Source: Anabaena subtropica FACHB-260
GTDB lineage: Bacteria > Cyanobacteriota > Cyanobacteriia > Cyanobacteriales > Nostocaceae
Reading direction: 5' to 3'
DNA: 64,000 nucleotides
Assembly (NCBI RefSeq): GCF_014697105.1
Contig: NZ_JACJRF010000001.1
Location: forward strand, 62,001-126,000
Notes under the pieces: model-generated
Databases searched by the model: none
Seen by the model: only the letters and a program-made list of their open reading frames with translations
What the model was told of the DNA's origin: nothing
Made by a program: the position numbers and the translations under genes
Shown: piece by piece, positions 27,747 to 41,710 of the stretch
Numbering within the stretch: the stretch's first letter is position 1
Layout: each line of letters begins with the position of its first letter

Positions 27747-30608
27747 TTACGTCATTTGTCGAGCCATCAATTGGGCAAAAATCCCTTCTACATCTGCTAA
27801 CTCTTGAAAAGTTCCCTGTTGTACTACCCGTCCTGCTTGCAATACATAGATGCGGTGAGCGTTGCGAATTGTACTTAGTCGATGAGCGATCGCAATTCTG
27901 GTAACTTGTAATTTATCTAGACTTTCACTGACTATTGCTTGGGTTCTGTTGTCGAGAGCGCTGGTAGCTTCATCAAATAACAAAATCCGGGGTTTTAATG
28001 CTAAGGCACGAGCAATTAGTAATCGCTGTCTTTGTCCTCCAGATAGATTACCACCTCCTTCACTGACTACAGTGTGCATTTGCATAGGCATGGCGGTAAC
28101 ATCATCAGCAAAACCAGACATCCGCGCTGCTTCCCAAGCTTCATCTAGGGTAATTTGAGCGCCACCAGCGATATTTTCAAAAATAGAGGCTGAACTCAGC
28201 TGACCATTTTGTAACACAACGCCTAATTGTCGCCTGACTGCATCCACATCTAAACCAGAAAGGTCTTGACCATCGTAATAGATGCTGCCGGCTTGGGGCG
28301 TTTCAAACCCCAGTAGTAGCCGTAGTAGAGTTGATTTACCGCTTCCAGAACCACCTACTAGGGCAATAAATTCTCCTGGCTCGGCAGAGATACTGACATT
28401 ATCTAGGGTTAAGTTGCCATCACGACGATAACAAAAAGTTACATGATCTACAGTAATTTTCCCTACCAACCTACCAGGGTCAGACTTGCTGAGATTCACT
28501 TCGGGGATGGTGGTTAAAATTGGCTGTGTGCGTTGCCACTGGGGAAGAATTTGTAAAATTTGGGTAACTGTATTGCTGAGGTTTGTGGTTCCTCTGGTGA
28601 AGTTGCTAAAGGCTGTGCTGAAAGCGAGAAAAGTCCCAAGGGAAAAGGCGATACTTCCGGAAGTTTGAGCTTCTTCTAAGAGCTTGGTGGTAAACCAGAA
28701 TAGGACTCCAGAGGTAATGATGGGGATGACTGTATTGAAAATTACAACAAAATCTTCTACCAGTTGGGTACTGAGTTCTAGCTTGATTTGCCGAGTGTAG
28801 TTTTTACTCCAAGCGGCGAAGGCGCGTTCTTCAGCCCCGGCAATATGCAGTTTAGAGATACCGTTGATTAACTGTACTGTCTGCCCGAAAATACTGCCCT
28901 GTACTTCTAGCAGGGGACGCACTTTTGATAATAGGAGGATACCAGAGATTGTAGTGATAGCGATCGCCACTACGGCACTAGCAACGGCAATCAGGGCTAA
29001 TTTATAGTTGTAATAAAATAACTGTCCTAAGTAAAATAACGCAAATATACTAGTAATAAAATTAATCAGCGTTCTACCGCTAAGTTGACGACGGATAGCA
29101 CTAACTGAGGAAATGCGTGAGAGTAAGTCCCCTGTTGTGTACTCTCGGAAAAAAGAGACTGGTAAATTTAGTAGCCTATCCCACACACCAGCCTGAGTAG
29201 AAGCATCACCAGAGGTTTCCATTCGCAGCAAGGCAAAACCTTGAGCCAGTTGAAATAAACCTGTACCTAAAGCAGCAACTAGTAACCCTAAGCCGATTTG
29301 TAATAATAAAGAGCGATCGCTATCGGGAATGGCATTATCTATAATTATTGAAGTGGCATAAGGTGTAATCATCCCCAACAGGGTAATGAAAATACCAGTA
29401 AATAAAATTTGTAGTAAATCCCACCCGTGTCCCCGGAGGGTAAACTTGACTATATCAATAGCCCTGAGTGCTTTATCTGGTAAAGAGCGATAAAACATAT
29501 AAGCCACAGGAGCTAATGTTGCAGCTACACCCTCGTTTACTACCACACGGCTATAGTTAACTGGGTCAAAAATTTCATAACGATTTCCAGCAACAGGTAA
29601 CAGCGCCACTGGTAGATTCTCTCTAGTATAGGCGACTAAAGCACCTGCATCTTTAAGCCACCAATTATCCCGCAACAACACCCGGCGCATTCGGATACGT
29701 GAAGCCCTGACTATCGCTTCTAATGGTTCTTTCACACGCTGGAGATTTTCTGAACGCAATGGGGGGCTAATCTTGATACCCATAGCCCTACCGACTGCAC
29801 CAGTAGCCACCAACAAAGGAGTACCTTCTAAGAAAAAGTCGCCGTCTTGAGAATTTAGAGTTGATGATAGTTCCCCTAAAGCCTCTGCTGTCACTCGACG
29901 ATTCAGGCGTTGACGTTCTTGCAACCTTGTCAGTTCTGCTTGTGCTTCTTGCTCATCTAATAAAGCCAAACAAGACAAGATTTGAGTATGTAATTGAGAT
30001 AAACCAGCCAGCAGTATATCGGGATTTTCGTATTCGCTAGGGCTATGAGTTGTCAGTTGCACTCCCCCAACTGGGGTTAACCACATTTTGTCATTCATGG
30101 GAAAGGCTGTAGCTGTGGTGAAAATCAATTCCTCAAATCCCAGAAAACAAACATTCCCTTCCTGAAGCTGCACCCAGCAAGTTAAACCTGCTGCTGGTTG
30201 GAAATTTTGACCATTATTTAAGGAAAATCGTCCTTGTCCCTCAGCCTTTACCTGAATTTTGGGAGTGGGAATCTGAGATAAGACACCACCAAGTTGCATT
30301 AACCAATTTTCCATCCAAGCGTTAGCTTTTGCTCCTAACCCCCGAAAACATTCTGGATGTAAAAGCAGTAACTCAACTTCACCAATAGGAACCGCGAGAA
30401 TTTGGCGTTGCTGATGAACCGTGCCGAAAAGTGCCTCGTCTTGGCTAATACTACATAAATAACGACGAGTTCCATCAATTACACCATCTTTCACTGTGAC
30501 CGCAAACAAAGCCATAGAACCAGACTTAATCACCCAAACCCGCGACGGGTCATTCAATAAAATTGGTTCATTACCATTAATTATGTAGATTTGCCCCTGT
30601 AGTTCCAT
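27747..30608 (-). CDS. NHLM-type bacteriocin/RiPP ABC transporter, permease/ATP-binding subunit without peptidase
   Basis: A 953-residue protein with an unusually long N-terminal region (about 390 residues, partly resembling a cyclic-nucleotide-domain fold) before an ABC exporter. The membrane domain lies at about 400-680; the ATPase has Walker A GGSGSGKS (752-759), LSGGQ (855-859) and ILLFDE (875-880). This size and layout define the second NHLM-system transporter, which pairs with a C39-peptidase transporter and a HlyD adaptor. It is the last gene of the operon. A gap of about 150 bases separates it from the peptidase transporter gene. It should form part of the export complex for the peptide encoded at 36752. 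Confidence 0.9.
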   Translation of the reverse strand: MELQGQIYIINGNEPILLNDPSRVWVIKSGSMALFAVTVKDGVIDGTRRYLCSISQDEALFGTVHQQRQILAVPIGEVELLLLHPECFRGLGAKANAWMENWLMQLGGVLSQIPTPKIQVKAEGQGRFSLNNGQNFQPAAGLTCWVQLQEGNVCFLGFEELIFTTATAFPMNDKMWLTPVGGVQLTTHSPSEYENPDILLAGLSQLHTQILSCLALLDEQEAQAELTRLQERQRLNRRVTAEALGELSSTLNSQDGDFFLEGTPLLVATGAVGRAMGIKISPPLRSENLQRVKEPLEAIVRASRIRMRRVLLRDNWWLKDAGALVAYTRENLPVALLPVAGNRYEIFDPVNYSRVVVNEGVAATLAPVAYMFYRSLPDKALRAIDIVKFTLRGHGWDLLQILFTGIFITLLGMITPYATSIIIDNAIPDSDRSLLLQIGLGLLVAALGTGLFQLAQGFALLRMETSGDASTQAGVWDRLLNLPVSFFREYTTGDLLSRISSVSAIRRQLSGRTLINFITSIFALFYLGQLFYYNYKLALIAVASAVVAIAITTISGILLLSKVRPLLEVQGSIFGQTVQLINGISKLHIAGAEERAFAAWSKNYTRQIKLELSTQLVEDFVVIFNTVIPIITSGVLFWFTTKLLEEAQTSGSIAFSLGTFLAFSTAFSNFTRGTTNLSNTVTQILQILPQWQRTQPILTTIPEVNLSKSDPGRLVGKITVDHVTFCYRRDGNLTLDNVSISAEPGEFIALVGGSGSGKSTLLRLLLGFETPQAGSIYYDGQDLSGLDVDAVRRQLGVVLQNGQLSSASIFENIAGGAQITLDEAWEAARMSGFADDVTAMPMQMHTVVSEGGGNLSGGQRQRLLIARALALKPRILLFDEATSALDNRTQAIVSESLDKLQVTRIAIAHRLSTIRNAHRIYVLQAGRVVQQGTFQELADVEGIFAQLMARQMT

Positions 30609-30712
30609 TTTGGATATTTAGATTTGGTGATTGTTGGTTACTAGTTTTAGGGTGTAGAGAAAGAAATTCTTGAATTTTGAATTTTGTAGCTTGCTTCCCG
30701 TAGGGTATTTTA

Positions 30713-30747
30713 AATTTTGAATTTTGAATTTTGAATTTTGAATTTTG
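30713..30747. repeat. Tandem heptamer AATTTTG, five copies
   Basis: Five exact AATTTTG units fill much of the gap between the two NHLM transporter genes. They are STRR-type repeats. A partial copy of the same heptamer lies about 40 bases upstream. Confidence 0.8.
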
Positions 30748-30756
30748 AATTGATTC

Positions 30757-33012
30757 TCATCCTTCCGTCCGAATCAAACGCGAGTATGCACCCTCAACTT
30801 GCCAAAGTTCTTGGTGTGTACCTTGCTGTACTACTTTCCCGCGTTCCAGGACAATGATTTGGTCACAGTCGCGGATAGTGCTTAATCTATGCGCCACGAT
30901 AATACAGGTACATCCCCGGCGGCGGAGATTTTGGTCAATGATTTTTTCTGTTTCTGCATCTAAGGCGCTGGTGGCTTCATCCATAACTAGGATAGAGGGA
31001 TTATTTACCAAAGCACGGGCAATTTCTAGCCGTTGTCGTTGACCACCACTGAGATTAGCAGCACCTTCGATGAGTTCGGCATCATAACCTCCAGACATAG
31101 AGAAAATTACATCAGCGATCGCTGCATCTTGGCAAGCCCTCATCAGGTTTTTATCTGGTACAGTAGTGTCCCACAGGGTTAAATTGTCTCTCACCGTACC
31201 GCCAAACAGCAAAATTTCCTGCTCCACCATCGCCACAGAGTTAGTCAGCAGTTGGGGGGAAATTTCCTCTCTCGGTTGACTATCAAAGTAGATTTCCCCA
31301 GTCCAAGGTTGATACAGTCCGCTTACAAGTTTGGCAATGGTAGACTTCCCAGAACCGCTTCCCCCTACTAACGCCACACGCTGTCCTGGCTTAATTGACA
31401 GATTAAAGTTTTCAATTAAAGGCGCTTCCAAGCGGCTATAGCCAAAAGTGATATTTTTTAACTCCACATACCCCTGCAACTTAGGAAGCGCATATATTAA
31501 TGGAGACGGTATTTCCCCCCCTACACTTGTCAGACACCCCTGCACCCCTATACCCTTTTCCCCCACTGGGTTATCTAACACATCATCAAGACGAATCAAA
31601 TTCCCCTCTAATTCCTGGAGTGTCGTACCAAAGTTGACAAGATTGTTGACGGGTTGCTGAAAACCAGACATTAAACCTTGAAAGGCGATGAGCATACCGA
31701 TACTCAGATGTCCATCCATTACCCGGAAACCACCGACTACCAAGAGCAACATAGCAGAAAGAGCCGAGAGAACTGTGGGTAAAACTGAGAATGTTTGGTT
31801 AGTAATTCCTAGTTCTTGTTGGGAATTGAGCGCCTTGGTGTAATAACCAGACCATCGAGAGAAGAAATCAGACTCTAACCCTGATGCTTTGAGTGTTTCT
31901 ATACTTTGTAATGTAGCGATAGATATACCCGCCGCCTTCCCATATTCTTGAATTAATCGTTGATTAGCATCTACCCGTTGACGAGAAATCCATTGCAAAG
32001 TTAAGACGTTCACGGCAGCAAAACTGACCACCATCAAGGTAAGTACCCAGTCATACTGCACCATCACCAAAGCATCAAAAAGCACCATCAATGTGTCAAT
32101 GATGGTTGTTGCTAACTGTCCAGCCAGAACATCGGCTACTTGGTCATTTAAGGTAGTGCGGTTACTGATTTCCCCAGCAAATCTTTGGGCATAAAAGCTC
32201 ACAGGTAGGCGGAGAATATGCCACAGGAAGCGGCTGGACATACCCACAGCCAGTCTAATTTTGAGTCGGCGTAGGTAGCGTAACCTGAGTAATGTGAGTG
32301 ATCCTTGCAGTATAGCAGCGATCGCCATTGCCAAAAGTAGAGGGTGCAGCCATAACATCCGTCCCTGCACCAAAATATCATCGACAAATATTTGACTAAA
32401 TACGGGGATTACCAACCCAATAATCGTCAAGAAAAATCCTGCCACGATGCAGTAAACTAAAGCACTCTCCGCCCCCTGTAGCCGTGACCACAAAGATGCA
32501 ATCATGCTGGGTTTGCGACCACCTTTTTGGAACTCTGGGCCTGGTTCCATCACCAGCACTATTCCGGTATATCCCTCGTCAAATTCTTGTAACGATACAT
32601 GACGCGGCCCCGTAGCGGGGTCATTGAGATAAACCTGATGTTTACCAAATCCCTCTACCACAACAAAATGGTTAAAGTTCCAAAAGACAATATAAGGAGG
32701 GCGTAATTGTTGTATTTGCTTCAGTTCTTTTTTAAAACCTTTAGCTTCTAGTCCATAGGTTCTGGCAGCTTTCACCATATTAGATGCCTTGCTACCATCG
32801 CGGGAAACCCCACAGTCTCGCCGCAACTGTGGCAGTGGTACAATTCGACCGTAATAACCAAGAATAATTCCCAAAGCAGCCGCACCACATTCCACCGCTT
32901 CCATTTGTAGAAGCGTGGGCGTTTTCACTCGCAGCCTTCTAGGTGGTAGTATTTTTTTTACATACTGCCAAGGATTAACCAGTGTTACTACGGTAGATTT
33001 AGTAGATACCAC
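30757..33012 (-). CDS. NHLM-type ABC transporter with C39 leader peptidase
   Basis: A 751-residue peptidase-containing ABC transporter. The N-terminal C39 domain has its active-site residues: Gln36 and Cys42 in LLQMEAVECGAAALG, His115 in NFNHFVVVEGF, and Asp131 in YLNDPATGPR. Six membrane helices follow (about 175-450), then an ATPase domain with GGSGSGKST, LSGGQRQR and LVMDEATSALD. C39 proteases cut after a Gly-Gly motif while exporting the peptide. The Gly46-Gly47 pair of the precursor at 36752 is a fitting site. Its start overlaps the end of the HlyD gene by 14 bases. Confidence 0.92.
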   Translation of the reverse strand: MVSTKSTVVTLVNPWQYVKKILPPRRLRVKTPTLLQMEAVECGAAALGIILGYYGRIVPLPQLRRDCGVSRDGSKASNMVKAARTYGLEAKGFKKELKQIQQLRPPYIVFWNFNHFVVVEGFGKHQVYLNDPATGPRHVSLQEFDEGYTGIVLVMEPGPEFQKGGRKPSMIASLWSRLQGAESALVYCIVAGFFLTIIGLVIPVFSQIFVDDILVQGRMLWLHPLLLAMAIAAILQGSLTLLRLRYLRRLKIRLAVGMSSRFLWHILRLPVSFYAQRFAGEISNRTTLNDQVADVLAGQLATTIIDTLMVLFDALVMVQYDWVLTLMVVSFAAVNVLTLQWISRQRVDANQRLIQEYGKAAGISIATLQSIETLKASGLESDFFSRWSGYYTKALNSQQELGITNQTFSVLPTVLSALSAMLLLVVGGFRVMDGHLSIGMLIAFQGLMSGFQQPVNNLVNFGTTLQELEGNLIRLDDVLDNPVGEKGIGVQGCLTSVGGEIPSPLIYALPKLQGYVELKNITFGYSRLEAPLIENFNLSIKPGQRVALVGGSGSGKSTIAKLVSGLYQPWTGEIYFDSQPREEISPQLLTNSVAMVEQEILLFGGTVRDNLTLWDTTVPDKNLMRACQDAAIADVIFSMSGGYDAELIEGAANLSGGQRQRLEIARALVNNPSILVMDEATSALDAETEKIIDQNLRRRGCTCIIVAHRLSTIRDCDQIIVLERGKVVQQGTHQELWQVEGAYSRLIRTEG

Positions 33013-34444
33013 TGGCAGACCTCAAGATTGGTAAAACAAAGGTGATAGGAGCGCGTTCTTCTACCTTGACCCGCACAATGGTAGTAGTTCCAGAAGAAAT
33101 ATTCAGGTGCGGCCCCGTGGAAGAAGACCACTTATAGCCGCTTGGTGTGTTGGCATCTAGTTCTAGGTGAGAGAATACTTGTATTAATCCTTGTTGTTGA
33201 GATACTAAACCTTCCACCACCTCAGAATTACCGACTTCACTAGCAGCTGCTTCTTTGGTAATCGGGAAGCGGGAAATGCTAGTGACATTACCCACAATCC
33301 CCCCAAAACGTTCCCGTTTCACCGTTTGGGGAGTAATTTGGATAGACATCCCTGGCTGAATTTTCTTCCCTTCCGCCACAGGAAAATAGGTGACACCAAC
33401 CAACTTACTCTGGGGATTCTCCGCCTCTATAGTAGCTAAGCGTGTACCTGCGTTAACAACTTGTCCTGGTGTCAAGGTAATTTCTAAAATGCGTCCGCTA
33501 TGTTGACTAATAATTTGGCTATTATCACTCAGTTGCAGTTCTAGAGAGCCAATCTCTCGGTTGACTTCTTGAATTTCTTTATTTCTCGCCGTGATATTTT
33601 CTAAGTCTTGTTGAGCCACAGAAGCTTGTTGGCTATCTACTTGTTTCAGTTGTGACTGCAAGTCAGCCACAATCGTTAGATTTTCCCGATAATCTTTTTC
33701 TTGTTGAGTCTCTTTGACATCCAGTTCTTTTAATTGCGCTTGAATATCAGCAATTTTTTCTAAGTTTTGCAGATATTCCTGTTCTGCTTGGAGGGCTTCA
33801 TCACCGGAAATTGCCCCTTCTTTTTGAAATAATTCTTGGCGAATTTTCATCCTCCGTAAAAACACAGAAGTCAGAGCTTGAGCCTGCTGGAGACGTTGCT
33901 GTAAGCCTTGACGTTGCTGACTAACAGAGGTGTTACCTTTGGTTTTCAGTAAAGGCGTGATTGCTTGCAATTCTAGTATACGCTGCCGGAGGTACTGACG
34001 CTGTTGTTGCTGCGATCGCTCCTCTTGTTCCAACCTCCGCCCTTGCAGCGAACCAACAGCTTGATCTTGTGATTCCAGTTGAGTTAGTTTCCCTCGCTGT
34101 TGTTGCAGTTGCTTACGCAGTTCAGCTTGGTCAATTGTCGCCAATACCTGCCCTTTTTTAATCACATCCCCCACTTTCACATTCAGCGCCATGATTTGCC
34201 CGGCACTTTTGGATTGTAGTGGTACAACGTTACTGGGATAAATAATTACACCCCGACCCTCAACGGTGATGGGAATGCTACCATAAATACCCCAAATAAA
34301 AGCAACTCCCACAATAGAACCCAAAGCCACAAGAGGTAGCCAGCTTTTAGGACTGACTACCTGCATCAGTTGGTCTAATCTTTCAGGAGAAGATAGACGC
34401 TCTAGGGATTCTTTACGGAATATATGGCGCTTTTGTTGGAGCAT
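32999..34444 (-). CDS. HlyD-family membrane fusion protein of the NHLM export system
   Basis: A 481-residue adaptor. One N-terminal membrane helix (about 36-55, LVALGSIVGVAFIWGIYGS) anchors it. Two biotinyl-lipoyl half motifs (VGDVIKKGQVLATID and LTPGQVVNAGTRLATIE) flank a long Gln/Glu-rich coiled coil at about 110-310. Such proteins link the inner-membrane ABC transporter to the outer membrane. The gene overlaps the C39 transporter gene and so belongs to the same operon. The coiled coil repeatedly uses QQRQ-type stretches, which fit an alpha-helical hairpin. Confidence 0.9.
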   Translation of the reverse strand: MLQQKRHIFRKESLERLSSPERLDQLMQVVSPKSWLPLVALGSIVGVAFIWGIYGSIPITVEGRGVIIYPSNVVPLQSKSAGQIMALNVKVGDVIKKGQVLATIDQAELRKQLQQQRGKLTQLESQDQAVGSLQGRRLEQEERSQQQQRQYLRQRILELQAITPLLKTKGNTSVSQQRQGLQQRLQQAQALTSVFLRRMKIRQELFQKEGAISGDEALQAEQEYLQNLEKIADIQAQLKELDVKETQQEKDYRENLTIVADLQSQLKQVDSQQASVAQQDLENITARNKEIQEVNREIGSLELQLSDNSQIISQHSGRILEITLTPGQVVNAGTRLATIEAENPQSKLVGVTYFPVAEGKKIQPGMSIQITPQTVKRERFGGIVGNVTSISRFPITKEAAASEVGNSEVVEGLVSQQQGLIQVFSHLELDANTPSGYKWSSSTGPHLNISSGTTTIVRVKVEERAPITFVLPILRSASGIY

Positions 34445-34494
34445 TTTTTGTTAATTTAACAATAATCTTGAATAATCTTGCCAGATTTTTCAAG

Positions 34495-35520
34495 CTAAGA
34501 AAATAAAGATAATAATTTTTGTGGAACACCGTTCCAAGTCGCTACATCTTTGATTATCTCTTGTTTCAATAAATCAGACTCTGGAAGCACAATTTCATCA
34601 CACAAAGCAACTAAATCAGCCAGTGTTGCATACCAAAGTAATGGTGTATCTCCACGCCCATGAGCAAGAAAATTAGATGCTTGTTCTAAAAAATTGGCAA
34701 CTTCATTATTTATGAATGCCATTTTCAGCAATAACCAAGTATACGCTTGAGGATGACAATGATAATCCTCATTGGAGTTGACTAATATATGAGTTAAGTC
34801 GATTTTTAGTAAATCGGAATCAAACTGATTATCTTGACTAGCTAAAATGATCGCGATTTCATCTGTTACTTGAACAAACATTGCAGCAACAAACTCTGGT
34901 ATTTGGCGTTTCACACGCTCATAGCCCCATAGACCAGGAACAGGTAATATGTCTAATACTCCTTCAAGATAACCCAGAATCTGGAAAGCGAGTTTAATCG
35001 CTCGATTCCACTGCATACAGCCCGCATCAATGCGTACAAGATTATGAACTAATTGAATACGACCAAAAAAGATAATTTCATAACCATATTCTTCCTCTAA
35101 AATCATATTAGTTTCTAGAGCGCTATAAGTTCTGTTACGAGCTTGTGTAAAATCACCTAATCGATAATCTAAGTAAGCTTCTGCTTGTTCTAAAAAAGAC
35201 TTATAAAGTAACATTCCTTCATGTGAAAGCTTATCTAGTTGCAGTAGAACATTTGCAGCAGAAAATGCCTTTTCAGCCGCAATTAAATCTCCTCTACGGC
35301 ACGCAATTAGGCCTCTTTGTCTGGCATTACCAAACTTATCTATAAGCAATCTTTCTGTCGATGTTAAGCGAGTACTTATTAAGTCTGAGAGATATTTATC
35401 TGCTGAATCATCAGATTTTATTGATGAAATCTCAATGGTTTTAGCACGACCTATACAGTAAGATTCAAGAGTCATTCGTAGAGCATCTCTACAAGAATCA
35501 ATAACTGAATAAAGTTGCAT
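34495..35520 (-). CDS. Uncharacterised TPR-like helical protein of the RiPP operon
   Basis: A 341-residue, largely alpha-helical protein with no signal peptide or membrane segment. The pattern ARQRGLIACRRGDLIAAEKAFSAANVLL near residue 69 and FLEQAEAYLDYRLGDFTQARNRTYSALE near 108 looks like two TPR-type helix pairs. The rest has no motif I recognise. It lies between the radical SAM gene and the HlyD gene with gaps of 50-65 bases, so it is cotranscribed. It could be a precursor-binding or scaffolding partner for maturation; that is inference from position only. Confidence 0.65.
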   Translation of the reverse strand: MQLYSVIDSCRDALRMTLESYCIGRAKTIEISSIKSDDSADKYLSDLISTRLTSTERLLIDKFGNARQRGLIACRRGDLIAAEKAFSAANVLLQLDKLSHEGMLLYKSFLEQAEAYLDYRLGDFTQARNRTYSALETNMILEEEYGYEIIFFGRIQLVHNLVRIDAGCMQWNRAIKLAFQILGYLEGVLDILPVPGLWGYERVKRQIPEFVAAMFVQVTDEIAIILASQDNQFDSDLLKIDLTHILVNSNEDYHCHPQAYTWLLLKMAFINNEVANFLEQASNFLAHGRGDTPLLWYATLADLVALCDEIVLPESDLLKQEIIKDVATWNGVPQKLLSLFS

Positions 35521-35583
35521 ATTTTAAAGCTATATCTGAAGATATAAAAGAGTGATTGTATTTTTTGTAACTGTCATTTTTGC

Positions 35584-36633
35584 TTATACAGTCAGTGCTT
35601 TCTTTCGCAGGTTAGCAGTTATTTCGTCACTTGTTGGCAATAGGACTAAAGGACAAGCTAGTGTATCAATATCAAGGGTTTCAATTCCACGAACCCAAGG
35701 AGCAAAACGACCAGGGATGAGTTTTAGCTTACCATCTGATGCTAAAGTACCAATATCATTACGCTCATCTGTTAAAGCTACTGTACACTTGCCAACTTTT
35801 CCATTGGCACGAATTACTAAAGAATTAGGACGTGCGGCGTAACAAACGGCATTGTCTGGTACAGCACCATTCTGTGACGATTTTAAATTATCACCAAATA
35901 ATTTATTTTCTAGGATTTTAATAGCTTTTGCTTTCTCAGTTTCCGAAAAAACTTTGATTGAAGTATCATTAGGTCCACCAAGGTGTTCAATTGCTTTGAA
36001 GAAAGCAGAAAATCTAGGATCAGGCAACAACTCTCTTTTGATATCCTCTAACAAAGGATCAAGTAAATCAAATGTATCGGCAGTAAAGTGAAGACGCAAT
36101 AAAACGGAAACAGGCAATAGACTATCGCGTATTGCTAGTAAATTAGACCAGATTCGTTCAAAGGTATTTTTACCATCTGCGCGGATACGGCTTTTATTAT
36201 GAATCTCCATAGGACCGTCTAAAGAGATTTGGTAATGTGTAACGCCCACATTGGCTAAAGCAGAAGCAGTATTGATATCAAGAAAGTAAGCATTAGTGGT
36301 CATAGAACCTGAGTAATGCAAATGAGAATAATTACCAGCCAGAGACATAGCATATTCAGAAATGTCTAGAACAGTGTCTTTAGCAACCAGAGGTTCTCCC
36401 CCAAACCATGATAAATTTAAATAACTCAAGGTTGGACATCGCTTTTCAATTAGTGCTTTAATGCCTGAGATAGTTTCTGACTTCATCCGCCCTATGGAAA
36501 AATCTTCATAGCAATAAACACAACGAAAGTTACACTGCTCTGTTGGTAAAATAATTAGTTCTAAATATTTATCAGATATTAATTGCGCCCGTTTTACATT
36601 ATCAATATGTTGTTGCAAAACTGCTACTGTCAT
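35584..36633 (-). CDS. Radical SAM peptide maturase with reduced SPASM (Twitch-like) domain
   Basis: A 349-residue radical SAM enzyme. The 4Fe-4S motif is CNFRCVYC (Cys34, Cys38, Cys41), with GGEP at 78-81 and ISLDGP near 136. In the C-terminal part Cys264 and Cys283 fit the CX9-15GX4C auxiliary-cluster motif (Gly278), and Cys327 is alone in ACPLVLLP, where full SPASM enzymes have a CxxC series. Enzymes of this class install thioether or carbon-carbon cross-links in ribosomal peptides. It starts at ATG with AGGAG 10 bases before, directly downstream of the precursor gene. It is the only peptide-modifying enzyme visible in the operon. The type of cross-link cannot be deduced. Confidence 0.85.
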   Translation of the reverse strand: MTVAVLQQHIDNVKRAQLISDKYLELIILPTEQCNFRCVYCYEDFSIGRMKSETISGIKALIEKRCPTLSYLNLSWFGGEPLVAKDTVLDISEYAMSLAGNYSHLHYSGSMTTNAYFLDINTASALANVGVTHYQISLDGPMEIHNKSRIRADGKNTFERIWSNLLAIRDSLLPVSVLLRLHFTADTFDLLDPLLEDIKRELLPDPRFSAFFKAIEHLGGPNDTSIKVFSETEKAKAIKILENKLFGDNLKSSQNGAVPDNAVCYAARPNSLVIRANGKVGKCTVALTDERNDIGTLASDGKLKLIPGRFAPWVRGIETLDIDTLACPLVLLPTSDEITANLRKKALTV

Positions 36634-36692
36634 AATACAAGCTCCTAAACTAGTTTTCTATCTTTTATTTCAAAGTTATGTAGATAAAATAT

Positions 36693-36735
36693 GATTGCTA
36701 CAATCTAGATTTATCTTTAGCCTAGTGTAGCAATC
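36693..36735 (-). terminator. Attenuator-like hairpin between precursor and radical SAM genes
   Basis: On the minus strand GATTGCTACA pairs perfectly with TGTAGCAATC (plus-strand arms 36726-36735 and 36693-36702), with a 23-base loop, followed by ATATTTTATC. It begins 16 bases after the precursor stop codon. A partial terminator here would keep precursor levels above enzyme levels, as in many RiPP operons. Confidence 0.55.
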
Positions 36736-36751
36736 CTTTGACAGAGAATTA

Positions 36752-36970
36752 TTATTCTGCTATTTGGTCAAAACTTGCACTAGTTTTACCACATTGGTAA
36801 TTTGCTCCACAGGCGACATAGTTAGCATTGCCACCAGCAATTGCTTCAAGTTCTTCAGGGCTTAACTCTTGGAGTGCATCCGCTAATTGTGGATCTTTAA
36901 TTACTAATTCTCCATTTTCATTAATTTGAATTTTTTCATTATTATCTTGTTCTAGGTTTTCGTTGGACAT
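36752..36970 (-). CDS. GG-leader RiPP precursor peptide
   Basis: A 72-residue peptide with a very strong ribosome site: AAGGAG six bases from ATG. The acidic leader (residues 1-47) ends LSPEELEAIAGG, the classic double-glycine leader cut by C39 peptidases. The 25-residue core begins after Gly47 and contains a near duplication, NANYVACG then ANYQCG, with Cys54 and Cys60, followed by a polar tail KTSASFDQIAE. The two Cys and the repeated Asn-Tyr are likely cross-link sites for the radical SAM enzyme encoded next. No LanM, YcaO or other modifying enzyme is nearby. Two Cys without modification could instead form a disulfide. Confidence 0.85.
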   Translation of the reverse strand: MSNENLEQDNNEKIQINENGELVIKDPQLADALQELSPEELEAIAGGNANYVACGANYQCGKTSASFDQIAE

Positions 36971-37179
36971 AATTTCTCCTTAATGATTTAAAACTGACGC
37001 ATTTTTGTGATTTAAGAATATTTTTTTAAGGAAAACATTCTTGGTTTGCTGTATATAAATTAATTCATTTAACAGACTAAAACAATACATTTTTTTTGCT
37101 TATTACTCACATTTTTTTAGATACCAAGATTCAAAAAAATCCACTTTAAATTAAAAATATAAAATAGCATATTGAAAAT
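36971..37179 (-). promoter_or_regulatory. AT-rich region likely holding the precursor promoter
   Basis: About 210 AT-rich bases separate the cNMP-domain gene from the precursor gene, far more than gaps elsewhere in the operon. This suggests a separate promoter for the precursor. I could not pick a convincing -35/-10 pair by eye. Confidence 0.4.
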
Positions 37180-38274
37180 TTAACCTACATTTAATCTTCC
37201 TAACATCCAATCAAATCTTTTCCCTGCCAAAGCCACCTTATCTAAAACTTCTATTCCTAATTCATCTTCGTATTCAAAGTTTCTATGTAATGGTAAGCCC
37301 TGACTATAAACGCGCCTGCTATAACTAAGCTGATTTACCATTCCTTGTAATCTTTGATCAAGCAAAGTGGGAATTACACGATAAAATCTTGATGCAAATC
37401 CTATATCTTGTTGTAATTTTGTAGCTAGTAGCTGTCGCGGAATTGCTAATACGACAGAATCTTCAATCGCCTTAACAGTTGCAGGGGGTAAACTACCATC
37501 AATAAAGGGTGTTTCTCCGATGATTTCACCTTTAGATAGTCTAGCTATTTCTCTACCAGCAATCTCATTACCCTCGATAGCTGCAAACGCACGTGCTAAA
37601 GGATTCTGTTCATCTAGGGAAATAGACAAGGACATTTTTCCATCGAGGATAATATACAGTGCGTCTACAGTTCCTTGTTCGTGAATGACTACGGTATTGG
37701 TGAGAATTTTTTGTGGAGTACCAGAAGCCATCATCCAATCTATGTCACTATCGTGCAATTCACTCAAGATGAACAGCACATCTGGTAAAGGTTGACCTTG
37801 CGCTAGGTTACGACGACCAAGTTGATTGATGGTATTTTGTATTCTACCGGAAATAATGATGGCGATCGCTCGATAAAAACGGGCTGCAAAACCAATGTCT
37901 TGCTGTAGTTTTGTTGTTAATTCCCCTATGGGGATTGATATCACCAGGGACTTTTCTATAGATGTAATTGTAGTGGTTGGTGGGCGTGTCCCAATCAAAG
38001 AACTTTCTCCCGCTATCTCACCTCTAGATAATCTCCCAATCTCTCTACCTAAAGTTTCGTCACCCTCAATAGCTGCGAATGCACGAGTTAGAGGATTATT
38101 TTCTGGTTGGGAGAGAGTGACGCTAAATGTGCCATCTAATAAAATATGAAAAAACTCAGTACTTCCTCTTTCTTGAATAAGTATAGTACCAGTCGCTAAT
38201 TCTTTTTGATGACCTGTAGTAATCATCCAATCAATATCACTTTTAGTTAACTCTTTCAGGAGAATTTCTGTCAT
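37180..38274 (-). CDS. Bacteriocin-transport-associated protein with two cyclic-nucleotide-binding domains
   Basis: A 364-residue protein made of two similar halves, each a cyclic-nucleotide-binding domain (about 10-155 and 175-320). Both contain the same insert, RAFAAIEGDETLGREIGRLS and RAFAAIEGNEIAGREIARLS. The phosphate-binding site is altered: RPPTTTI in the first half, and SLPPATV without arginine in the second. This matches the cyanobacterial family known as bacteriocin-type transport-associated protein (cyc_nuc_ocin, TIGR03896, from memory). That family regularly accompanies NHLM transporters; its function is unknown. It is encoded just upstream of the precursor on the same strand. Binding of cAMP or cGMP is doubtful given the changed residues. 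Confidence 0.85.
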   Translation of the reverse strand: MTEILLKELTKSDIDWMITTGHQKELATGTILIQERGSTEFFHILLDGTFSVTLSQPENNPLTRAFAAIEGDETLGREIGRLSRGEIAGESSLIGTRPPTTTITSIEKSLVISIPIGELTTKLQQDIGFAARFYRAIAIIISGRIQNTINQLGRRNLAQGQPLPDVLFILSELHDSDIDWMMASGTPQKILTNTVVIHEQGTVDALYIILDGKMSLSISLDEQNPLARAFAAIEGNEIAGREIARLSKGEIIGETPFIDGSLPPATVKAIEDSVVLAIPRQLLATKLQQDIGFASRFYRVIPTLLDQRLQGMVNQLSYSRRVYSQGLPLHRNFEYEDELGIEVLDKVALAGKRFDWMLGRLNVG

Positions 38275-38342: not shown

Positions 38343-39500
38343 CTATATTGGTAGTTTATTTAAGATGTTATGGATATGTGAGGAAGCCTCTGTAGTAGCT
38401 AATTCCTCTAAGGTCAAATAACACAATGCAATTAAGATTAATGGTTGATTATTAAGGCTTGTGTGATTTTGTACATATTTAATATGGAATTGCTGCAAAT
38501 TTTCGGCGGCTGCTTTAACTAATGCTTGGAGGATTGCAAAGGCTCTATCAGAAAGTGGTGGCTGACCACGATAGTTTTGTAGTCTACCTCCTTCTCGATA
38601 TTTTGGAAATGATTCTAATCCTAAAAATTGCAAAAACCAATCAGTATGATAATTACCACTAGCAGCTACAATACCTCTATAGTCGGCAATTAATTCATCG
38701 AATATATTGTTTCGCATGGAATTAAATAAGCGATGTGTGAGGTAGTGAGTGCATTCATGTTCCAGGCGAATTTTGATAGATAATTGCTGCCATTGGGATT
38801 CGGAAATGCCTATATTTTCAGCAGAGATATTGCTATATGGATTATTACTTAAAATAATAAATTTATCTTGATAAAGTGTTTTCTGGGGAATGATTTTTTG
38901 AAACTCTGTTTTCCAATTATTTTCAGAATAATTACCAAAATTTGCTGCTTCCCATTTTTGGCGATACTGACGAATCCTATCCCAATTGTTGAACCCACTA
39001 ACGATACAAGCTCCCATTGATGTAGGAACTGTTTGGGGTTCATTTCGCATTGTTAAAGCTTGTACTAAAGAGATAAAATCTTCTCGGCTTTCAGTTAGTA
39101 ATACTGGAATAGTTCCAGCCAAACTTTGATGCAGGATTAATTGTAGTTTTTTTGGTTGTTGCAAGACTAAACCACTCGCTTCTACCATCTCATCTGTTGA
39201 CACACCTTTACGAGTAGCATTTTGATATGTTTGTGTTTGAGAAATACCCTCTTGGATGGGAAATTGTAACTGTACAAGCTTTTGTTTAAGTACTGCAAAC
39301 ACGCCTAATATTTTGGCTACAACTGCGTATTCTTCCCAAGCTTTTATGTGTGGTTCTGGAGGTAAGGGAAATTCAATCGGGGAGGTTAAGGTATCATGAG
39401 TAAAAACATTTTGGTTGTATATTAATAGTTCCTCTACCTCAGAAGCTGTTGCTCCAAAGTCAGTCAAAACTTGAGTACGCAATGATTGTTTAAGATTCAT
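38343..39500 (-). CDS. Uncharacterised HExxH protein, putative zinc metallopeptidase
   Basis: A 385-residue soluble protein that I cannot assign to a named family. The C-terminal half has LEHECTHYLTHRLF with an HECTH zinc motif (248-252), and Glu269 in NIFDELIADYRG, 17 residues after the second His, as in gluzincin-type metallopeptidases. The N-terminal part has no clear motif. The start codon lies only 4 bases after the stop of the MinD-like gene, so the pair is translationally linked. It could process a peptide or partner in the same system, but a structural zinc role cannot be excluded. Confidence 0.65.
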   Translation of the reverse strand: MNLKQSLRTQVLTDFGATASEVEELLIYNQNVFTHDTLTSPIEFPLPPEPHIKAWEEYAVVAKILGVFAVLKQKLVQLQFPIQEGISQTQTYQNATRKGVSTDEMVEASGLVLQQPKKLQLILHQSLAGTIPVLLTESREDFISLVQALTMRNEPQTVPTSMGACIVSGFNNWDRIRQYRQKWEAANFGNYSENNWKTEFQKIIPQKTLYQDKFIILSNNPYSNISAENIGISESQWQQLSIKIRLEHECTHYLTHRLFNSMRNNIFDELIADYRGIVAASGNYHTDWFLQFLGLESFPKYREGGRLQNYRGQPPLSDRAFAILQALVKAAAENLQQFHIKYVQNHTSLNNQPLILIALCYLTLEELATTEASSHIHNILNKLPI

Positions 39501-39504
39501 ATTG

Positions 39505-40296
39505 CTACTGATGACTTACCACTAAACCAGCAAGCTGCTCAGTAATCTCTTGTATTGTTTGAGTGATGGGATGTTGAGGATGGCGTAGACAAAAAAGACC
39601 TTTACTAGCCAGTTTCACCATATCTTCAACCAGGGGTAAAATCCCGGCTACTGGAACATCATAGATTTGCTCTAGCTGTTGTTCCAAGTCAGTAAAATTA
39701 AAAGATGCTAAAGCTTTATTAAGAACTAGGAGAATTTTTGCGGCTTTCAATTTCCGCGCTACGTCCACTGTCACGGCTGTTCCTTGGAAGTCTTGATTAT
39801 CTGGACGGAGGATAATTAGTAAAATATTAGCAATACCGATGGAAATCAAGGTTTCTTCGTTTAAACCAGGATGAGTATCAATTAAAAGATAATCCAATTT
39901 TAAACTACGAATAATTTCGTGAAAGCCATCATGAAGTCGGACTACATCATATCCTTCACGCAAAATTCTAGCGATTTCCGCAGCTTTAATACTGGAGGGA
40001 ATTAGATAAAGGCTACCCCGAATTTTATCTGTATTTCCTGACTCGGCAATTAATATATCGGTAACATCGTAGGCGGTATCTTGAATATCACAGCGTTTCC
40101 ATAGATAGTCATTGAGGGTTAGTTGAGTTTTTTCTTCTTTGAGACCAAAAATAATATGAATCCCTGGTGATTGGATATCAGTATCAATTATGCCTACACG
40201 TTGCCCTTTGAGCGCCATAGTAGCTGCTATATTGGCGATGATATTTGATTTGCCGGTTCCACCACGGAATGAGTGAACAGCGATAATTTGTGCCAT
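39505..40296 (-). CDS. MinD/ParA-type P-loop ATPase
   Basis: A 263-residue deviant Walker ATPase. SFRGGTGKSNIIANIAATMALKGQRVGIIDTDIQSPG holds the P-loop (RGGTGKS) and Walker A' aspartate, and LLIDTHPGLNEETL near residue 135 is Walker B. It closely resembles MinD-like proteins that position protein assemblies on membranes. No MinC, MinE or ParB gene is near, so cell division or plasmid partition is unlikely. It lies between the Cache-HAMP protein and the HExxH protein with gaps of 10 and 4 bases, so it belongs to this operon. It may organise the sensor or the export complex; that is inference. Confidence 0.85.
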   Translation of the reverse strand: MAQIIAVHSFRGGTGKSNIIANIAATMALKGQRVGIIDTDIQSPGIHIIFGLKEEKTQLTLNDYLWKRCDIQDTAYDVTDILIAESGNTDKIRGSLYLIPSSIKAAEIARILREGYDVVRLHDGFHEIIRSLKLDYLLIDTHPGLNEETLISIGIANILLIILRPDNQDFQGTAVTVDVARKLKAAKILLVLNKALASFNFTDLEQQLEQIYDVPVAGILPLVEDMVKLASKGLFCLRHPQHPITQTIQEITEQLAGLVVSHQ

Positions 40297-40306
40297 AAGA
40301 TTGGTA

Positions 40307-41710
40307 TTAAGATTCTAGTTTTTTGTTATTTAGCGATCGCTCTTTTAAAGATTTCACCTGAGTTTGCAATCGCTGGTAGTATTCTTTCTCACTTTCACGG
40401 GTATTGATTTCCTGTTGTTTAAGTTTTTGGATAGTTTGTTGTAGATACTGAAAGTTTTCATGTTCTGTAATTTCTAATACATCCTTAGCTCTTTTGGTTT
40501 GGTCAATCTCAATTTGCAGTTCCTGAACCTGCATTTTCAATTTTTGATCACGCAACCTAACCTCTTCAGCCATTTTTAAAAAGACTCGCACTAGTTGACC
40601 GATATCATCTTGGCTATGACTTAATTTTTCTAAGTTGTGATGTAGTTCAATTACATGAGCATCAAAATTATCATCCTCCAATGCTTGGGCGGCGGCTGTG
40701 AGGGCGTGAATCGGTCGAGAAATACTCAACCCTAAAAGCAGGGCGATGATGGCGGTGATTCCACCGACAATCACCACACTGCTGCTATTGAGCCAAATTA
40801 GACGATGCAAAGGTGCAATAAACTCTGCTTTGGGTTGAGTCACTCCCAATACCCAAGGTTGAGTTGCTAAGGGTGCAAAGCCGACTATCTCTGAGGTTTG
40901 GGATTTTTCTAGGTGATAGGTGGTGTGTCCTGGTTGTTTGGCTTTTACCATCACCGCTAACTCAGGAATGTCTAAGCTTTCAATCTGATCTACTTGTTTG
41001 GGGGTTTTGGTTGATAAAGGAATGAGACTATGGTTAAGTAAAGACGCATCAGGATGGCTGATGATAATCCCTTGCTGGTCGATCACAAAGACTTGATTTT
41101 GAGAGTCTAATAGTTGCAAAGCGTTGATAATTACCCAGATATCAGCTTGGCGAATCTTGATGAGGGTGAATCCAATAATCTCCCCATGAGATCGCACAGG
41201 TTGAGAAAAGAACATCTCCGGAGTGTTGCTAGTTTCACTCAACAACACACCAGAGCCATAAAGTTTACCTTGGATGTGTGAATAGTTTTTACCAATCAAC
41301 TTTGGATCTGTTGCTGCTAGACATTGACCATTTTTATCCATCAGCAACACAACATCCAAATTGGGATGAGAACGGAAGACATTTTGAATTGTCTGCTCTA
41401 GGTTAGAACCTTGGGCTTGGCGATTTTGTGATGTGGTAGCTGCGAGAAAATCTACCACATAGCGATCGCTACTAATTTGAGTAACTACACGATGATAATC
41501 AATAATTAATTGATCCAAACGACTAGCGCTGCTGCTGGCTAACAGTTCTAGTTTGTGGTATTCTCCAGCCTCTACACTATTTAAGCTCTGTTGTAGGTTG
41601 TAGTAGGCTGTAAAAATCATCGGTATTAGCACAGCACAAACCAAGGCTACCGAAATTTTGGCAGCGATCGGCCAGGCAGGTGGATAAAATAACCGATGGA
41701 AATGCTTCAT
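40307..41710 (-). CDS. dCache-HAMP membrane sensor ending in a coiled coil
   Basis: A 467-residue protein with membrane helices near 17-35 and 295-315, a periplasmic double-Cache sensor between them (for example VVLLMDKNGQCLAATDPKLIGKNYSHI), a HAMP domain at about 319-372 and a C-terminal coiled coil of about 95 residues rich in Lys, Glu and Gln. It has no histidine kinase, methyl-accepting or cyclase domain, so the signal must pass through protein contact. The MinD-like ATPase gene 10 bases downstream is the obvious candidate partner. It is the first gene of the operon. Confidence 0.85.
   Translation of the reverse strand: MKHFHRLFYPPAWPIAAKISVALVCAVLIPMIFTAYYNLQQSLNSVEAGEYHKLELLASSSASRLDQLIIDYHRVVTQISSDRYVVDFLAATTSQNRQAQGSNLEQTIQNVFRSHPNLDVVLLMDKNGQCLAATDPKLIGKNYSHIQGKLYGSGVLLSETSNTPEMFFSQPVRSHGEIIGFTLIKIRQADIWVIINALQLLDSQNQVFVIDQQGIIISHPDASLLNHSLIPLSTKTPKQVDQIESLDIPELAVMVKAKQPGHTTYHLEKSQTSEIVGFAPLATQPWVLGVTQPKAEFIAPLHRLIWLNSSSVVIVGGITAIIALLLGLSISRPIHALTAAAQALEDDNFDAHVIELHHNLEKLSHSQDDIGQLVRVFLKMAEEVRLRDQKLKMQVQELQIEIDQTKRAKDVLEITEHENFQYLQQTIQKLKQQEINTRESEKEYYQRLQTQVKSLKERSLNNKKLES

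Follow-up and report, generated by a model that had tools for sequence, protein, structure and literature searches.

What does the gene cassette analysed here make, and by which chemistry? It lies in a stretch of 64,000 nucleotides of the Anabaena subtropica FACHB-260 genome (contig NZ_JACJRF010000001.1, positions 62,001 to 126,000), called the window throughout, where the gene of a small precursor peptide precedes those of a radical S-adenosylmethionine (SAM) enzyme and an NHLM-type export set. The original prediction had taken it for a pathway to a ribosomally synthesized and post-translationally modified peptide (RiPP). Our analysis indicates that the product is probably a RiPP that has Cys-Asn thioether rings, most likely with the Asn beta-carbon as acceptor, and leaves the cell through the NHLM system. 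A Cys-Asn thioether through any carbon is very likely from the sequence patterns described below, and the beta-carbon is the most likely acceptor atom by analogy with the streptococcal peptide NxxcA. The elements at the centre of the argument are:

36752..36970, minus strand: 72-residue precursor peptide, an open reading frame with AAGGAG upstream of its ATG
36830-36970, minus strand: precursor leader, residues 1-47, ending ...SPEELEAIAGG
36755-36829, minus strand: precursor core, residues 48-72, NANYVACGANYQCGKTSASFDQIAE
35584..36633, minus strand: 349-residue radical SAM enzyme (PF04055)

Open reading frames (ORFs) and family matches bore out the predicted arrangement of a 72-residue precursor with a double-glycine (GG) leader, a radical SAM enzyme, a TPR-like protein and an NHLM export set, all on one strand. 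The precursor is single copy (it has only one match in its own genome at E<=0.1) and a search of plasmids gave no match at E 0.01. Its core holds Asn57-Cys60, a strict Asn-x-x-Cys with Asn at position -3 of Cys, and Asn50-Cys54, an Asn-x-x-x-Cys with Asn at -4 (residue numbers were counted by hand from the ORF translation). For comparison, 84,980 species genomes were scanned with a pattern, which turned up relatives of the enzyme in 219 stretches, and 79 of these 219 loci were taken; together with two further loci, and minus L024, in which the enzyme runs off the contig, they make up a set of 80. A profile made from seven cyanobacterial precursors, of which only the leaders were used, was iterated over the 3607 small ORFs on both strands near the enzyme in these loci. 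It gave 56 matches, every one of them on the strand of the enzyme, on which 1584 of the 3607 ORFs lie. This comparison of enzyme neighbourhoods, which the original prediction had proposed, thus found precursor-like ORFs in 44 of the 80 loci, with a common leader motif of the type [DN]ExG-x-[IVL][VI]-x-x-[DE]P. No precursor was found at the Xanthomonas enzymes (L059, L063, L067) or at several further ones.

The cores behind these leaders share the spacing of Asn and Cys. Cys follows the leader in 52 of the 56 matches, and at 53 of the 117 Cys of these 52 cores an Asn stands at -3, where shuffled cores give 12.3 (0 of 5000 shuffles reached the observed number). At -4 there are 23 (11.6 expected, 3/5000) and at -1 a slight rise to 20 (13.7 expected, 206/5000), while no excess of Asn was seen at -2, -5, -6, -7 or -8 of the same 117 Cys. 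Asn-x-x-Cys occurs in 37 of the 52 cores and one or the other of the two spacings in 45. When a single core per locus was kept the pattern persisted, with Asn at -3 in 43 of 97 Cys (9.8 expected, 0/5000), at -4 in 18 (9.2 expected, 6/5000) and Asn-x-x-Cys in 30 of 43 cores. A second set came from the 36 loci without a profile match, the ORFs being chosen by a leader regular expression blind to Asn and Cys. It amounts to 25 ORFs from 15 loci, 23 of them with Cys (72 in all), and again Asn was in excess at -3 (31 of 72, 7.4 expected) and at -4 (20 of 72, 7.2 expected), each with 0/5000. Asn was also in excess at +2 and +5, which fits tandem repeats of the motif. Such repeats can be seen in Pseudomonas crudilactis (L042), whose precursor has four Asn-x-x-Cys, and in the gammaproteobacterial locus L048 (11176-12850), with at least four tandem precursors carrying many repeats each.

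Plasmids provided an independent check. Ten plasmid records encode relatives of the enzyme, six of them predicted to be conjugative, and we examined eight that had not been used before. A small ORF with Asn-x-x-Cys was found beside the enzyme in 6 of the 8. Five of these ORFs are hypothetical proteins called by NCBI (NMHC, NINC, NGNC, and NGGC twice, in identical Bradyrhizobium peptides); the sixth is unannotated and was picked from the ORF list (NILC, NVPC). The two Deinococcus records had no small ORF with Asn-x-x-Cys beside the enzyme. The plasmid genes seen carry no annotation beyond 'radical SAM protein' and 'hypothetical protein', under which the class goes unnoticed. Altogether, Asn-x-x-Cys cores were found in Cyanobacteriota, Bacillota, Actinomycetota, Pseudomonadota, Bacteroidota, Planctomycetota and Bdellovibrionota. 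The core can therefore no longer be said to lie outside every RiPP class: the two spacings are common to the cores of the relatives, and Asn-x-x-Cys is the motif of NxxcA (PMC8326336, PMC13361665).

The enzyme is compatible with such a reaction. All 82 enzymes compared share six invariant cysteines, of which three are assigned to the SAM cluster (C34, C38 and C41 in the window) and three to a single auxiliary cluster (C264, C283 and C327). These last are the only auxiliary-cluster cysteines of the window enzyme, as expected from the reduced auxiliary domain originally predicted. It lacks a domain N-terminal to the radical SAM core, the family median being 35.5 residues before the first cluster cysteine. 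Its AlphaFold model (pLDDT 90.8, pTM 0.89) has CteB and anSME as nearest solved structures and aligns to CteB 71-426; these structural comparisons are a second look at Foldseek's own ranking, and absence from its lists was not used as evidence. In sequence the closest relative in the PDB is CteB (8.1e-26), with SkfB far behind (2.4e-7), and the nearest named enzyme belongs to Nostoc parmelioides FACHB-3921 (96% identity), whose whole cassette (L010) is almost the same as that of the window. As foreseen, the search of precursor and enzyme against curated families left both outside: no NCBIfam cut-off was passed by the window enzyme among the best 25 of 68 matching models, nor by six of its relatives among the best 25 of 62-67 each, nor by the window precursor, four other precursors and those of L011, L042 and L049. 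The radical SAM enzyme is, again as predicted, the only recognizable maturase in the cassette.

We propose that the enzyme would bind the leader via the common motif and that a 5'-deoxyadenosyl radical would then abstract a hydrogen from the acceptor Asn (Asn50 and Asn57). The thiolate of Cys54 or Cys60, three or four residues downstream, would sit on the open site of the three-cysteine auxiliary Fe-S cluster and close the ring, with the loss of two hydrogens per ring. The C39 domain of the NHLM transporter would cut after Gly47, at the Gly-Gly, and the 25-residue core would leave through the two NHLM ABC proteins and the HlyD protein. As to the product, our guess is a secreted peptide of competition or signalling.

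Several observations weigh against this proposal. The control with ORFs of the opposite strand was impure, with Asn at -3 in 4 of 13 Cys from 5 cores (0.8 expected, 24/5000), perhaps from true precursors on that strand. No Asn stands at -3 or -4 of 45 of the 117 Cys. Neither spacing occurs in 7 of the 52 cores, including that of the closest relative, L006 (KDTVVINKVKQCGCTIIKK), and that of the NHLP precursor of L014. Even in the window only one pair is strict, the other being Asn-x-x-x-Cys. The shuffle statistics ignore the kinship of the cores. Four of the 56 profile matches have a core without Cys, and a small number of matches, L073 and L021 for example, may not be precursors; no match was obtained in 36 of the 80 loci. 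The fold does not single out thioether formation, anSME and the cyclophane enzyme ChlB fitting as well as CteB. Finally, the family has a single three-cysteine auxiliary cluster and not the SPASM domain of NxxcB, an enzyme that we compared by its description only.

Among other explanations, the one that survives best is that the same Asn-Cys pairs are joined through the Asn alpha-carbon, as in sactipeptides. We consider this unlikely, since NxxcB, the known enzyme with Asn upstream at this spacing, uses the beta-carbon (PMC8326336, PMC13361665) and the closest PDB relative, CteB, forms non-alpha thioethers, well ahead of SkfB. Somewhat less likely still is a different chemistry at Asn (a C-C or C-O crosslink, epimerization or oxidation), with Cys serving only as a cluster ligand or in a disulfide formed after export. 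The equally good alignments of ChlB (cyclophane) and anSME (oxidation) speak for it. Cyclophane formers, however, need an aromatic partner, and none was strongly enriched round Cys among the top eight residues per offset (the highest was Phe, 1.8x at -1). Besides, the fixed distance from Asn to Cys is hard to explain unless both residues take part. That the peptide is a plain GG-leader bacteriocin, unmodified or disulfide-bonded, beside a radical SAM enzyme that acts elsewhere, is very improbable in spite of weak matches below threshold to GG-leader bacteriocins (CTB model NF038167, 20 bits against a cut-off of 32), because precursor and enzyme stay paired across phyla while transporter and accessory genes change, and genome G289 (locus L006) keeps both with no NHLM set nearby.

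Returning to the Cys-Asn thioether, how widespread would it be? The enzyme is sparse. It was found in 5 of 388 genomes of the class at E<=1e-30 and, with a family profile at E<=1e-60, in 18 of 217 genomes of the family, the own genome included in both counts; it was also present in 2 of 398 Pseudomonadota and 1 of 296 Actinomycetota sample genomes, one in each being the centre genome of the sample. In a tree of 62 enzymes the main cyanobacterial clade (15 rows, support 100/97) has three Bacillota enzymes as sister (100/99). Two Nostocaceae enzymes (L033 and L039) group with Bacteroidota and not with that clade (99/98); their leaders are longer and a separate acquisition is likely. In locus L019 the enzyme family is represented twice, and a separate precursor lies upstream of each of the two enzymes. 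The window core is near-identical to that of Paracidovorax anthurii (L049, 360-623, NYVGCGGNAYQCGKSGAS), NYVACGAN-YQCGKTSAS in the window and NYVxCGxN(A)YQCGKxxAS in common. The alignment score is 68, the next best core reaching 37 and the maximum of 20,000 shuffles 47, with enzymes only about 45% identical and far apart in the tree. This likeness may reflect either an exchange of the core between lineages or constraint by a common target.

Leaders, like export, can be exchanged. Assigned by NCBIfam cut-off, those of the main cyanobacterial clade are mostly short GG leaders as in the window, with Nif11 precursors in L020 and L022 (the cut-off is passed by 3 of the 4 in L022) and NHLP precursors in L014 and L015. 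The Nif11 precursor of L007, a congener outside the tree, scores 47.8 bits (cut-off 32.3), and its core motif is NGIC. Asn-x-x-Cys is present in 6 of 6 cores of these Nif11 loci, to which L020 and L022 contribute five. The NHLP cores number two: that of L014 has neither spacing, and the other has Asn at -4. The window leader is of neither type, as the original prediction held, scoring 13.0 bits with the Nif11 model (TIGR03798, cut-off 32.3) and giving no match to the NHLP model (TIGR03793) at E up to 1. In cyanobacteria the enzyme is thus paired with three unrelated leader types, and it would be the core motif, not the leader, that defines a class. Whether there is such a class, sparse and cross-phylum, with a compact one-open-cluster radical SAM enzyme lacking a RiPP recognition element (RRE), one to several Asn-x(2-3)-Cys rings and a cassette that moves into and out of a constant NHLM locus, seems to us an evenly balanced matter.

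The export genes and neighbours in the window are transcribed in the order dCache/HAMP, MinD-like, DUF7005, cyclic nucleotide (cNMP), precursor, radical SAM, TPR-like, HlyD, C39-ABC and second ABC:

40307..41710, minus strand: dCache and HAMP sensor-like protein (PF02743, PF00672), recurrent neighbour of the export locus
39505..40296, minus strand: MinD/ParA-like ATPase, recurrent neighbour of the export locus
38343..39500, minus strand: DUF7005 protein (PF22541, 580.8 bits), recurrent neighbour of the export locus
37180..38274, minus strand: double cNMP-binding, bacteriocin-type transport-associated protein (TIGR03896, 443.1 bits, cut-off 161.05)
34495..35520, minus strand: 341-residue TPR-like helical protein, no family match above cut-off
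32999..34444, minus strand: NHLM HlyD-type membrane fusion protein (TIGR03794, 578.6 bits, cut-off 156.2)
30757..33012, minus strand: NHLM ABC transporter with C39 peptidase (TIGR03796, 1204.7 bits, cut-off 853.3; PF03412)
27747..30608, minus strand: second NHLM ABC transporter, without peptidase (TIGR03797, 1048.7 bits, cut-off 709.4)

All four NHLM-type proteins (HlyD, C39-ABC, second ABC and double cNMP) pass their curated cut-offs, which upholds the prediction that NHLM export serves a radical SAM RiPP cassette. Another genome of this genus (G575) has nearly the same export locus (HlyD 96.5%, C39-ABC 96.3% and second ABC 90.3% identical) and the same flanking genes (cNMP 84.8%, DUF7005 91.7%, MinD 93.9%). 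Between cNMP and HlyD its genes run in the opposite direction and encode an NHLP precursor (104.5 bits) together with two enzymes, a PoyD-type epimerase (615.5) and a B12 radical SAM C-methyltransferase (848), and a family-profile search at E<=1e-60 gave no match to our enzyme in this genome. Precursor, enzyme and TPR-like protein are therefore an exchangeable module within a fixed NHLM export locus. The pairing with NHLM had been called unusual; this stands for the leader of the window but not for the locus, where the congener has NHLP with a PoyD-type epimerase and a B12 methyltransferase, and other partners of NHLM are reported (PMC2887384). Outside cyanobacteria the commonest common neighbour is a C39-type ABC transporter. 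Counting cyanobacteria too, 39 loci have ABC proteins similar to these and 16 have HlyD-type proteins.

The model of the TPR-like protein consists of helical hairpins, with moderate confidence. Its homologues adjoin the enzyme in only five loci (L010, L011, L014, L015 and L023/L008), which shows that the class can do without it; it is possibly a substrate adaptor. A 362-residue protein (L007 10365-11453; also L014, L015, L020, L022, L128 and L129) recurs near Nif11 and NHLP precursors, with or without the enzyme family; it has no Pfam or NCBIfam match and is perhaps an adaptor for those leaders. Other genes of the surroundings are a JmjC_2 oxygenase (PF08007, 95.8 bits, cut-off 22) between enzyme and HlyD in L042 (11004-12152) and, downstream of the Gloeobacterales cassette (L008 7401-9149), a match below threshold to an aKG-HExxH peptide beta-hydroxylase (TIGR04267, 31.3 bits, cut-off 40). 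The DUF7005 protein, which recurs in NHLM loci whatever the cassette, has an HExxH-like stretch, LEHECTHY. A hairpin between the precursor and enzyme genes (z -1.70) is not claimed, since 12 of 200 shuffles fold equally well.

If the proposed reaction is right, stapling by Cys-Asn thioethers, for which the parts available of reviews of 2024 (PMC11002830) and 2026 (PMC13361665) name streptococci only, is spread over at least seven phyla in our set, by way of a much simpler enzyme with one auxiliary cluster and no RRE. On the evenly balanced class reading this would be the widest known home of that chemistry. The family would offer a clean test of the minimal Fe-S machinery for thioether formation, and its compact enzyme would be a tool for stapling peptides. 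The exchange of cassettes in one NHLM locus, for its part, means that the export system accepts peptides of unrelated maturation chemistries.

How does the system compare with those already known? Our literature search, whose coverage mostly excluded subscription papers, found no description of this enzyme and precursor family. Radical SAM clusters whose motifs include Asp-Cys are treated in the available text of PMC9062424 (section 4), along with others, but no Asn-x-x-Cys cluster is named there. Pseudomonas genomes with antiSMASH 'ranthipeptide' calls have been reported (PMC8704066), and whether these are the present family could not be told. The NHLM systems of Haft et al. 2010 (PMC2887384), described there next to a LanM-like enzyme and thiazole/oxazole-modified microcin (TOMM) machinery, share with the window all three transport components; the window precursor differs from their NHLP and Nif11 precursors in its short leader outside both families. 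CTB bacteriocins have a similar leader end, ...ELxxEELExIAGG, and their model aligns to the leader end only. The best enzyme profiles, among the 25 best of 68, were TIGR04463 (132.6 bits, cut-off 525), Clo7bot TIGR04334 (124.6, cut-off 600) and geopeptide TIGR04280 (97.5, cut-off 400). With the ranthipeptide maturases CteB (thermocellin) and PapB (freyrasin) the family would have in common the thioether logic with an open auxiliary site. Their acceptors follow Cys-x3-Asp, whereas here the acceptor would lie upstream of Cys, there is no N-terminal domain of RRE size, and the maturase models are missed (PapB NF047865 86.1 bits against 340, SCIFF TIGR03974 52.7 against 425, and Clo7bot).

The closest parallel is NxxcA with NxxcB of Streptococcus orisratti. 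A Cys-Asn ranthipeptide from S. orisratti and S. porci is named in the 2024 review (PMC11002830); Asn-x-x-Cys is the defining motif of NxxcA, and NxxcB joins the Cys23 thiol to the Asn20 beta-carbon (PMC8326336, PMC13361665). As in the window, Asn stands three residues before Cys in the core and the maturase is a radical SAM enzyme with an auxiliary Fe-S domain. NxxcB is described as a SPASM enzyme (PMC9012708), of a class with cysteines for two auxiliary clusters, whereas three auxiliary cysteines are invariant in our family. In contrast to NxxcA, the spacing here is -3 or -4 and the motif is often repeated, with GG, Nif11 or NHLP leaders and C39/NHLM export in cyanobacteria. The predicted bond and the motif were already known; the simpler enzyme, the leaders, the export and a much wider host range are new.

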